A stretch of DNA of 64,000 nt from Algoriphagus aquimarinus (GTDB taxonomy: Bacteria > Bacteroidota > Bacteroidia > Cytophagales > Cyclobacteriaceae), in the NCBI RefSeq assembly GCF_007997215.1, contig NZ_VORW01000002.1:62001-126000 (forward strand), in the 5' to 3' direction. Positions within the stretch are counted from its first letter, which is position 1. Every line of letters begins with the position of its first letter. The notes under the pieces were generated by a model. It did not search any database. It was not told where the DNA came from and saw only the letters and a list, made by a program, of their open reading frames with translations. Below, piece by piece: positions 58,172-61,004 of the stretch. The translations under genes were made by a program, and so were the position numbers.

Positions 58172-59092
58172 TTAGATTTCAAGGATGTAGTCTAATATAC
58201 CCGCATTCTTGCCTTTAGGTCTAGTTACCAAAAGTGGAATACTATCGTTGTATTGAATTAAACGCTCAGCCATACTTCCTATAAATAATGCTGTAGCAGC
58301 TGTTCGGCCTTTAGCTCCTATAATAATCCCATCTGCACCCATTTCCCTCGCCTTTGCCACGATTTCTTCCACCGGATCATCATTGACGTCTTGGGTATAT
58401 ACAGGTGTGATTTTGTTTCCTTTCGTGTCTATTTTGCGAATGAATTTTTTGTAATTAATCTCGGCATGCATGCGCATGATCTGAGTAAATTCTTCGTAGC
58501 TTTTTCCTGTATAATGATAGCCAGAAGGGACTGTGAACACATTTTGGCATACAATTTCGAGACCACCATGCTTTTCAGCTATCATAATAGCCTCTTCTAA
58601 GGCGTCCTTAGAATAATCAGAAAAATCGCTTGGCACTAACAAGCGTTGCATTTTTGTCTCTGAGCCTTCTGGTACTATGAGTAGTGAACAGCTTGCCCGT
58701 CTAGCTAATCTTGAAGAAGCAACCCCAGTTCCAGGTAGATGTACTTTTCTGCCTATCAAGATCATGTCAGCAGATTTTTCCTCGGCAAGTTTTAATATTT
58801 TTTTAGAGAGAGACCCTTCCTTTACTATGTAGTTTAGAGAGATTCCCTTTGGGTTTTGGAAATGCTCTTTAACCATAGATTCCATGGCTTCTTGGCGCTC
58901 ACTGACCATGTTATCTACCAGATTAGGGAATTCCTCTAGCACCTCTTTGGGAATGCTTAGATTCTTTATCACATTTACGAAGTAGATTTTTTTGGTTTGA
59001 TTTACCTGAGCAATAAAAGCTGCATGTTGAATCAGGGTTTGATCCAAAGAAGTCTGATCTAGGCAAACGACCATTTTTTTAATCAAATACAT
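58172..59092 (-). CDS. Tandem universal stress protein
   Basis: 306 residues, two Usp domains: about 1-145 (MVVCLDQTSLDQTLIQHAAF) and 150-290 (MQRLLVPSDFSDYSKDALEE). The second keeps the ATP-binding loop G-x2-G-x9-G-S (GAKGRTAATALFIGS). In the first the loop is altered (GRKVHLPGTGVASSRLA). A Met at residue 7 is an alternative start. Roles range over stress survival and nucleotide sensing; the target is unknown. Single gene. Confidence 0.92.
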   Translation of the reverse strand: MYLIKKMVVCLDQTSLDQTLIQHAAFIAQVNQTKKIYFVNVIKNLSIPKEVLEEFPNLVDNMVSERQEAMESMVKEHFQNPKGISLNYIVKEGSLSKKILKLAEEKSADMILIGRKVHLPGTGVASSRLARRASCSLLIVPEGSETKMQRLLVPSDFSDYSKDALEEAIMIAEKHGGLEIVCQNVFTVPSGYHYTGKSYEEFTQIMRMHAEINYKKFIRKIDTKGNKITPVYTQDVNDDPVEEIVAKAREMGADGIIIGAKGRTAATALFIGSMAERLIQYNDSIPLLVTRPKGKNAGILDYILEI

Positions 59093-59116
59093 AAAGCGCC
59101 AATGGTTTTAGGAATG

Positions 59117-59124
59117 CAAATTTA
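59117..59124 (-). promoter_or_regulatory. Promoter -7 element for the universal stress protein
   Basis: Leftward TAAATTTG is a full TAnnTTTG match, 24 bases before the start codon. Confidence 0.5.
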
Positions 59125-59197
59125 AGAGTAAAACGAGTAAAACTTTAGGTATTTAGTGAAATAAAATTTCGATTAAATTCATTTTTCAGTTGATTAA

Positions 59198-59209
59198 CGA
59201 TTGCAATCG
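59198..59209. repeat. Perfect 12-base palindrome
   Basis: CGATTGCAATCG lies upstream of the universal stress protein promoter. It could be a dimeric regulator site; there is no further support. Confidence 0.3.
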
Positions 59210-59311
59210 ATTGAAGTATGTATTTAAATGAAATTTTATTTTGATTTAAGCTCTTGAGGTTCAGATTTTTTTGAATTAATAACTATACATTATCGGAATC
59301 ATCCTGCAAAC

Positions 59312-59345
59312 TTGCCAACCTGCCGTGTAATAAATCGTATATTTG
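59312..59345 (+). promoter_or_regulatory. Rightward promoter with no coding gene downstream
   Basis: TTG (59312-59314) precedes TATATTTG (59338-59345), a full TAnnTTTG match, with 23 bases between. No rightward gene follows; the next gene is the leftward flippase. Confidence 0.4.
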
Positions 59346-59349
59346 TACT

Positions 59350-59547
59350 GTCCGGGTCGCCGACATGTTCAAACTTCACAAATTACAAATTTACCGAGTG
59401 AAGCCCTTCTCAAAAACAGGCCTCATCCCGATTCAGTCGGGACCTCGTCTCGCAAGAGTCAGGATAACAGTGGAAGTTTGCGGTAAACAGGCAGCTCAAA
59501 TCTTGTCAAGTAGGAGGTTTGCAACACTCTAAGATCCGGACTTTTTT
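59350..59547 (+). ncRNA. Candidate structured RNA of about 195 bases
   Basis: A rightward promoter match ends 4 bases before GTCCGGGTC (59350-59358). This pairs completely (one G-U) with GATCCGGAC (59533-59541), which is followed by six T residues. A transcript closed by its own ends and finishing in a U tract resembles 6S-like RNAs in size and outline. Internal pairs include TCCCGA with TCGGGA and a CTC-GCAA-GAG hairpin. Against it, the 3' arm lies within the last codons of the flippase gene and part of the RNA is an intergenic repeat. Confidence 0.25.
59420..59468 (-). repeat. Intergenic palindromic repeat, unit C
   Basis: Read leftward the unit begins GTTATCCTGACTC, contains GCGAGACGAGG as in unit A, and ends with TCCCGA-CTGAA-TCGGGA then TGAGG as in unit B. 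It therefore looks like a composite of the two halves seen at 6457-6564. Confidence 0.55.
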
Positions 59548-61004
59548 ATTCTATTTTTCACCCATTCCCACTCCTCGGTTCCTACACCCAGCAATCTTGA
59601 GAAAAACAGGTAGGTGCCAAATACCAAAAGACTTGTTAGCATGATATTTAGAAGTGGTGATTGAAAAACTGAGTTGAGATAGCCTGGAGTAAAAGCAGTA
59701 AATCCAACAAAAATAATCTTCACTGTCTCTGTAGAAAAAGGCTCGAAGCCTAATTTGATTTTTAGGAAAAGGTACTTCACCAGGTTGAATAAGAACATCA
59801 CTACCACAGAAGCCATAGCAGCACCTTCGATTCCATAGATAGGAATAAGCAGGTAATTCAACCCAATAATCAAAACACTCATCCCAATTGTAGCAATCAG
59901 ATTGAAACGATAATGCTTAGAGAAGACTAGGATTTCGCCATTTACGGAGAATACTACGTCAAAGAGTTTTCCTAGACCAATCAAAACGACCACGTATTTA
60001 CCTGCTTCGTAGATATCACGATTTGGGATGAAATAATACAAAGCATCTAGATTTGACCAGATTCCAATAAATAGCAACAAGCAGATATAAAGTTGACGAT
60101 TTGAAATCTGCTTATAAAGCTTGTTGATTTCTTCGTGATTTCCTTTAGCAAAATGATCAGCAATGACTGGCATCACTACTTGAGAGATTGCCCTTCTAGG
60201 CAATTCTATCACCAGTGCCATACTGAATGCAATCGTGTAGATAGCATTTGCTTCAAGACTGATCATCGAGCTTACCATGATGCTGTCAATCTTCATGATC
60301 AAAGTGGAAGCTGCGGTTGCGAGGAAAGTGATTAGACTGAATTGGATGAAAGATGTACGAAATCCTTTTGGAAATGTACTCCAACGGAAATCAAATTTTA
60401 AAACTCCCAACCAAAGTAAATAGATCAAAACCCCCAAAAAGGCAAATCCATATACAGCTACCAAACCTTGCATTACTTGGGGAAAAGTAAGCCATTTGAG
60501 CAAGTAAGATCCTACTAGAATCCCTGTGAGAAGTCTAAGGAAAACTTCACGCATGAGGGTAGGGACAGCTACTTTGACATAGGACCTACTATATGCGTCC
60601 AGTATGCTACTCAGTAGCGAGAATAACGTGATCAGTAAAACGACTCCGAAAAAGTCAATTACCTCAGGGGAGTTGACTGCAAATAACTCAATGATTTGGG
60701 TTTTGAAACCTAGGAAAATTGTACTCACCAAAGCGAAACCTACCATGGAAAAGACCAAGCCATAGCTCAGTAAGGCAGATTGATTGGATTTCAATTGTGG
60801 GAAAAAGCGTGTGATACCATGTCCTACACCTAGCTGGGCAAAGGGAACAAACAATAAGCCCAGATCCTGAATAGTCCGGAATGTACCTAATTGAGAAGCA
60901 TCTAATGCATAGGGATAAAGCCAAAGTACATTGACATACCCTATGACAACTCCCAAGTACGAAAAAATGGTGGTTTGAATACTCTGCTTGGCTACTTTGC
61001 CCAT
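59529..61004 (-). CDS. Polysaccharide/lipid-linked oligosaccharide flippase (MOP superfamily)
   Basis: 491 residues with about 12-14 membrane helices. The N-terminus SIQTTIFSYLGVVIGYVNVL and the block GTFRTIQDLGLLFVPFAQLG are typical of Wzx-like polysaccharide biosynthesis proteins. A second half starts SLITFLATAASTLIMKIDSI. It would move lipid-linked glycan units across the inner membrane. No glycosyltransferase genes lie beside it, so the glycan is unknown. It is downstream of and on the same strand as the feo operon, separated by about 50 bases. Confidence 0.88.
   Translation of the reverse strand: MGKVAKQSIQTTIFSYLGVVIGYVNVLWLYPYALDASQLGTFRTIQDLGLLFVPFAQLGVGHGITRFFPQLKSNQSALLSYGLVFSMVGFALVSTIFLGFKTQIIELFAVNSPEVIDFFGVVLLITLFSLLSSILDAYSRSYVKVAVPTLMREVFLRLLTGILVGSYLLKWLTFPQVMQGLVAVYGFAFLGVLIYLLWLGVLKFDFRWSTFPKGFRTSFIQFSLITFLATAASTLIMKIDSIMVSSMISLEANAIYTIAFSMALVIELPRRAISQVVMPVIADHFAKGNHEEINKLYKQISNRQLYICLLLFIGIWSNLDALYYFIPNRDIYEAGKYVVVLIGLGKLFDVVFSVNGEILVFSKHYRFNLIATIGMSVLIIGLNYLLIPIYGIEGAAMASVVVMFLFNLVKYLFLKIKLGFEPFSTETVKIIFVGFTAFTPGYLNSVFQSPLLNIMLTSLLVFGTYLFFSRLLGVGTEEWEWVKNRIKKSGS

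Follow-up and report, generated by a model that had tools for sequence, protein, structure and literature searches.

6S RNA acts on RNA polymerase as a general brake. In the characterised 6S RNAs a '-10-like' element lies in the 3' side of a central bubble, and the short product RNA (pRNA) forms a hybrid with the 5' side of the bubble together with the 5' strand of the helix P2, which is unwound (PMC8876501). Two Rfam families bear on the question of 6S RNA in the Bacteroidota. The 6S-Flavo RNA (RF01685) performs, according to Weinberg et al. (2010), the function of a previously validated class (PMC2864571), and the Bacteroidales-1 RNA (RF01693) is described in Rfam as '6S-Bacteroidales RNA suggested'. 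Ryan et al. (2020) presented dRNA-seq evidence for a 6S RNA and two classes of pRNA in Bacteroides thetaiotaomicron (PMC7366714), and a transcriptome of Flavobacterium psychrophilum lists 6S RNA among the known RNAs (PMC9723704). The RNA of Ryan et al. is most likely the RF01693 RNA, since a control Bacteroides genome gives RF01693 and neither RF00013 (canonical 6S, SsrS) nor RF01685. Although 6S RNA has been detected experimentally in both of these organisms, a search at the cut-offs (for RF01693 the gathering cut-off) finds neither RF01693 nor RF00013 in any of 40 Algoriphagus genomes.

The locus described here is a noncoding region between a universal stress protein gene and a flippase gene of Algoriphagus aquimarinus, in a window of contig NZ_VORW01000002.1 (the window being the whole stretch of 64,000 nucleotides that was analysed). 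An earlier note on this DNA had pointed to a full promoter box facing a region without a gene, followed by a transcript closed over nine bases by a segment leading into six T's, and had likened it to the 6S-type RNAs. The sequence elements are all as the note had them (Table 1). The box, TATATTTG, is of the TAnnTTTG type, which we take to be the Bacteroidetes -7 element, and the single open reading frame of at least 50 codons between the flanking genes is a mechanical one (55 codons, 59365-59532). The closing arm GTCCGGGTC is complementary to GATCCGGAC over nine pairs, one being G-U, and the six T's lie directly 3' of the second arm. The note had let the feature run from 59312 to 59547; the 3' end stands, whereas the start falls about 35 bases upstream of the transcript as we infer it, the 5' end of which is placed from the box and the 3' end from the T-run, each to within a few bases. 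Between the stress protein gene and the promoter there is also an A/T-rich imperfect inverted repeat (59159-59241) with 37-nt arms that are complementary at 81% and a loop of 9 nt; as RNA it has about -28 kcal/mol. When 37 genus loci are compared by blastn, it is mainly the stretch preceding the repeat that matches, so that the repeat in its entirety is not conserved.

Table 1. Features of the locus, in positions of the window (R1, R2 and the alignment A3 are described in the text).
Feature	Positions	Strand	Basis or remarks
Universal stress protein gene	58172-59092	minus	Pfam Usp
Promoter -7 box TATATTTG, TAnnTTTG type	59338-59345	plus	sequence; conserved spacing in genus rows
6S-type RNA gene	59347-59547	plus	block shared by the genus; R1 and R2 matches; folding z -2.70
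Closing stem, 5' arm GTCCGGGTC	59350-59358	plus	pairing, covariation
Helix P2	59371-59376 / 59515-59520	plus	90.3% of cells paired; double changes at 3 of 6 pairs
Central bubble, 5' side ACAAATTACAAATTTACC	59378-59395	plus	18 bases, unpaired between supported helices
Apical domain	59396-59497	plus	helices 3-9; 89.9-100% of cells paired
Apical rod helices	59396-59399/59494-59497; 59403-59405/59490-59492; 59410-59417/59476-59483; 59421-59422/59472-59473	plus	
Two apical hairpins	59426-59430/59438-59442; 59443-59447/59460-59463	plus	
Central bubble, 3' side AAATCTTGTCAAGTA	59498-59512	plus	15 bases, opposite ACAAATTACAAATTTACC
Closing stem, 3' arm GATCCGGAC	59533-59541	plus	within the flippase coding sequence, antisense
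T-run TTTTTT of the intrinsic terminator, with the closing stem	59542-59547	plus	sequence
Flippase gene	59529-61004	minus	Pfam Polysacc_synt

A blastn search with 59290-59545 gave a match in 36 of 36 genomes of the same genus (E at most 4e-30), and in 22 genomes of other genera no match was better than E 0.0265. Two models were used in addition: R1, a model from the genus only, and R2, a model from the wider alignment A3 with its rod-like fold. With these the RNA was also found in five further genus genomes (G182, G204-G207), and blastn and models together place it in all 41 genus genomes examined and, by R1 or R2, in 38 of 41 sampled across the family. In one family genome, G221, R1 gave no real match (E 0.36 over 22 bases), but R2 detected the RNA at 2e-12. 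Under the strict filters used for large samples, R2 matches 39 of 149 genomes of the class, 18 of them at places that RF01693 or RF01685 reports as well and 21 at other places. In the source genome blastn, R1 and R2 alike give one match only.

The block that is common to all 37 genus rows of the alignment starts at the promoter box and stops around the T-run. TAnnTTTG is found at the same spacing (within 2 nt) in 34 of these rows, whereas control windows further upstream hold it anywhere in 14 of 370 cases; among 31 other loci, 18 contain it at some position of the corresponding 58 nt, as compared with 7 of 310 controls. At least five uninterrupted T's follow the stem in 24 of the 37 rows, and most of the others have an interrupted run, such as TATTTT, two rows ending too early to judge. 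What emerges is a free-standing, single-copy gene with promoter and terminator signals of its own that occurs throughout the clade, three nearly complete family genomes (G212, G242, G244) giving no match with R1 or R2, which may reflect loss, a gap in the assembly or strong divergence. A genome of another family (G103) has two model matches, L075 on contig 93 and L086 on contig 37 (E 1e-22 and 1e-9 with R1; 4e-26 and 2e-12 with R2, the first of the two being part of the R2 alignment), which are possibly 6S paralogues or the product of a mixed assembly. Metagenome assemblies titled 'Spirosoma fluviale' (L116, L149, L165, L198) carry an Algoriphagus-type locus, and their titles look mislabelled.

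In all 37 genus rows the nine pairs of the closing stem are kept, and seven of the nine show double compensatory changes, which is the covariation in sister genomes that the earlier note had proposed to look for. For the whole RNAalifold structure of the genus, none of 500 shuffles reaches the observed values. The multibranch form of that fold was put aside, since most of its inner helices (3, 4, 7 and 8) hardly vary and the wider alignment backs a rod. This alignment, A3, comprises 43 loci: 12 of the 37 genus rows, 30 loci from elsewhere in the family (G071 plus the 29 top scorers among 36 other-genus matches, the seven weakest, without a locus, being left out) and one from G103. Its fold consists of the closing stem, the central bubble and an apical stem. 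In A3 93.1% of the cells of the rod are paired, against 81.8% in shuffled and at most 53.2% in slid controls. Because the sequences are related, comparisons with shuffles come out too favourable; the slid controls are less open to this effect, as are the closing stems that have been replaced in distant genera. Double changes occur at 30 of the 39 rod pairs, in 226 cells against 56.3 expected, the pairs having been chosen on A3 and then counted on the same alignment. All 43 rows form the apical pair 59416/59477, and they do so with five pair types.

The closing helix itself has 84.9% of its cells paired in A3, a shortfall that we put down to misaligned outer stems of the distant members because the arms of these members do pair with one another. 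Over the 43 loci, cognate closing arms give a mean of -22.8 kcal/mol and swapped arms -12.7, and the true partner ranks first of 43 in 20 loci and ninth or better in every locus. An alignment fitted with R1 (A2) was dropped from the pair counts, the outer stems of its distant members being misaligned. The RNA as a whole has a closing stem made from its 5' and 3' ends and an 18/15-base bubble between P2 and a long apical stem. In the 3' bubble AAATCTTGT is invariant in all 37 genus rows, and AAAnCnTGT in all 43 rows of A3.

A whole-window Rfam scan at curated cut-offs gave tRNA only, no family reaching its gathering score at the locus. In a permissive scan of 59090-59640, RF01693 matches across 59358-59547 with 22.6 bits (cut-off 60; E 0.11); the five other matches of that scan are to microRNA or lncRNA families, at E 0.49 or worse, and RF01685 has no match at the locus in it and none reported in the source genome. 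RF00013 gives no match at the locus in the 40 genus genomes and a single one elsewhere (E 0.055, in one of the 40). The best genome-wide match of RF01693 lies at the homologous place in 34 of these genomes and elsewhere in six (G005, G018, G019, G021, G031, G205). Taken one by one the E-values are weak, the best being 9e-4 and many being above 0.1, and the genomes are related; a match that is weak alone becomes strong across genomes through the preference for the homologous place in 34 of the 40.

Searches in the opposite direction support the same relationship. RF01693 exceeds its cut-off at four places; R1 finds two of these (G194, G162) in whole genomes and matches all four when given the loci directly. 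Among 29 loci fetched by RF01693 or RF01685, a set that excludes the genus locus L033 and in which two pairs are the same place fetched twice, a full-length match at the expected site is obtained for 13 with R1 and for 25 with R2. Counted by place, R2 matches 23 of 27 and misses L035, L063, L065 and L066; it matches 12 of the 15 loci fetched by RF01685 at the expected site. Where both Rfam models report a match, in seven genomes, they indicate the same place in four (G078, G121, G156, G181) and different places, all below cut-off, in G077, G130 and G186. Since R1 and R2 match loci found by both, RF01685 and RF01693 look like one family.

The locus RNA is homologous to both 6S-Flavo and Bacteroidales-1, and this homology extends over the full length of the RNA; with respect to RF01693 it is a homologue outside the curated bounds. 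The earlier note had suggested a search with the Bacteroidetes 6S models, and this had a divided outcome: the cut-offs are not reached at the locus, but R1 and R2 match the loci of both families and the link with RF01693 holds both ways. Together with the covariation, these matches support its 6S-type reading. We consider the RNA to be, very probably, an unannotated and divergent 6S RNA that the standard RNA database is too narrow to recognise.

It could be argued that box, stem and T-run are a chance arrangement from which no transcript is made. TAnnTTTG boxes number 73 in the window against 65.9 expected, a frequency near background, so that the box alone says little, and the interval 59305-59550 folds only moderately better than its shuffles (z -1.57, with 16 of 200 as good, which is unimpressive; the opposite strand gives z -0.96). 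The likely transcript, 59347-59549, has a z of -2.70, with one of 200 shuffles as good and the closing stem in its minimum free energy structure. The box, a 9-bp closure with at least five G-C pairs and a run of five T's, criteria fixed after the case was seen, occur at fitting spacing once in the window, at this locus, and in none of 60 dinucleotide shuffles. This result, the presence of the RNA in every genus genome examined, the compensatory changes and the matching of an Rfam model at the homologous place led us to reject chance, which we regard as hardly conceivable. An effect in cis on the neighbouring gene has to be considered too, as the 3' end of the RNA does overlap the flippase gene in antisense, a claim of the earlier note that proved correct. 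The flippase stop codon is at 59529-59531 (minus strand) and the overlap extends from 59529 to about 59547. The stress protein and flippase genes adjoin the RNA in all 37 genus loci, and the flippase stop is located 21-35 nt beyond the 3' core in 35 of the 37 rows (21-24 nt in 25, 34-35 nt in 10), L003 having none and L004 one much further out. The overlap is nevertheless about 19 nt long and involves the last flippase codons only, while covariation is spread throughout the RNA and mostly outside it. Furthermore, several more distant genera keep the RNA although tblastn detected neither of the neighbouring genes in the surrounding 1.5 kb or so (L098-L100 and L107-L110 are examples), and the conservation of the RNA is not tied to the overlapped gene. 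The overlap therefore probably results from the way in which convergent genes are packed in this genus, and the RNA does not require it; that the RNA serves as a cis-antisense regulator of the flippase gene seems very improbable.

A different possibility is that a conserved structured RNA sharing ancestry with 6S-Flavo and Bacteroidales-1 has some other role, such as the binding of core polymerase in the manner of Ms1, or of another protein. The apical loops are strongly conserved around CAAAAnCAGGCCTCA and TAACAGTGGA, which is more constraint than expected of a simple decoy, and the 6S label of RF01693 is only 'suggested'. On the other hand, the rod with its central bubble, the promoter and terminator signals and the single copy are as in 6S RNA, and the RNA of Bacteroides for which pRNAs are reported (PMC7366714) is most likely the same RNA. 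We therefore think another role unlikely. The reading that we prefer, with a probability of about 0.9, is that this is the single-copy 6S RNA gene of Algoriphagus, for which we infer transcription, polymerase binding and the synthesis and release of pRNA. The analysis supplies the gene, a structure with closing stem and bubble that covariation supports, and an argument that two Rfam families should be merged. Searches of the literature for an earlier mention found none; we claim no absence from print on this basis, and the searches do not cover the survey of Wehner et al. (2014), who reportedly surveyed 6S RNA across bacteria.

If the RNA is indeed a 6S RNA, RNA polymerase would start a few bases past TATATTTG, make about 200 bases and stop at the T-run after the closing stem. 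The RNA folds as a rod of closing stem, P2, an A/U-rich bubble (18/15), a long apical stem and two capping hairpins. By analogy with the characterised 6S RNAs, it may bind primary-sigma RNA polymerase as a decoy for an open promoter, the 3' bubble standing in for the non-template strand and the 5' bubble for the template. When nucleotides return, the polymerase would copy a short product RNA off the 5' bubble, melt P2 and be released. On the same analogy the template would be 59378-59395 with P2, and the pRNA is predicted near 5'-UGUGAAGUUUGAACAUGUCGG, its start being subject to a shift of several bases either way; the short product RNAs would begin near 5'-UGUGAAGUUUG. The analysis thereby yields a concrete predicted start site for the product RNA. 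The segment AAAUCUUG of the 3' bubble has four of the six fixed bases of TAnnTTTG, a loose likeness judged by eye and with no statistic, and the resemblance is suggestive only.

Refolding of the E. coli kind, in which pRNA synthesis makes the 3' bubble pair with the 3' strand of P2, is not universal among 6S RNAs. At this locus these two segments are complementary, which a release hairpin of the E. coli type requires. The refolding pairs can form in 91.1% of the cells of A3, a value as high in 2 of 500 shuffles; one only of these pairs has double changes, which 296 of 500 shuffles reach. With the 5' strand of P2 blocked, the release hairpin wins in 7 of 43 folds (control mean 3.6, range 1-7), and combining its cognate parts gives no better folding than combining swapped ones (p 0.66). 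The hairpin is not supported by these folding tests, and the pairing counts are weakly in its favour. It is possible, and we advance it tentatively, that there is one phylum-wide 6S family in the Bacteroidota, of which the bubble and the apical domain have been adapted to a primary sigma factor with TAnnTTTG, and not TATAAT, as its recognition sequence. AAAnCnUGU might then be the -7 box of the RNA and the conserved apical loops an upstream contact, with the 3' strand of P2 contested by the 5' arm of P2 and the 3' bubble in an E. coli-like release switch. How an RNA that imitates a promoter adjusts when the sigma factor recognises another promoter sequence is a question that follows from the present analysis.

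The locus RNA shares with canonical 6S RNA a length near 200 nt, a closing stem, a central bubble and an apical stem (architecture as given in PMC8876501), as well as promoter and terminator signals of its own. Unlike canonical 6S RNA, it has two apical hairpins in place of a capping loop, and it has no RF00013 match, that model alone being the sequence comparison made. The same rod and bubble are seen in the printed alignments of 6S-Flavo. Judged by eye, two of its loci have UUGGGA/UCCCAA or a similar helix above the bubble, where the present RNA has GAGU/GCUC. In the printed match of Bacteroidales-1 the first 54 positions and the 3' end of RF01693 are unpaired, and the closing stem is therefore absent from that model; the model line leaves both ends unpaired, yet in the four loci above its cut-off the two ends pair with each other as a stem. 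These four loci, from genomes that are presumably of the Bacteroidales, fold with one apical hairpin, whereas the Cyclobacteriaceae rod has two. In other respects they are close: they share the 3' bubble CUCAAAUCnUGU and have both P2 (GAAACUC/GAGUUU) and a closing stem (AGCCG.A/UGCGGCU), and the locus RNA is homologous to Bacteroidales-1 along its whole length, with each detecting the other.
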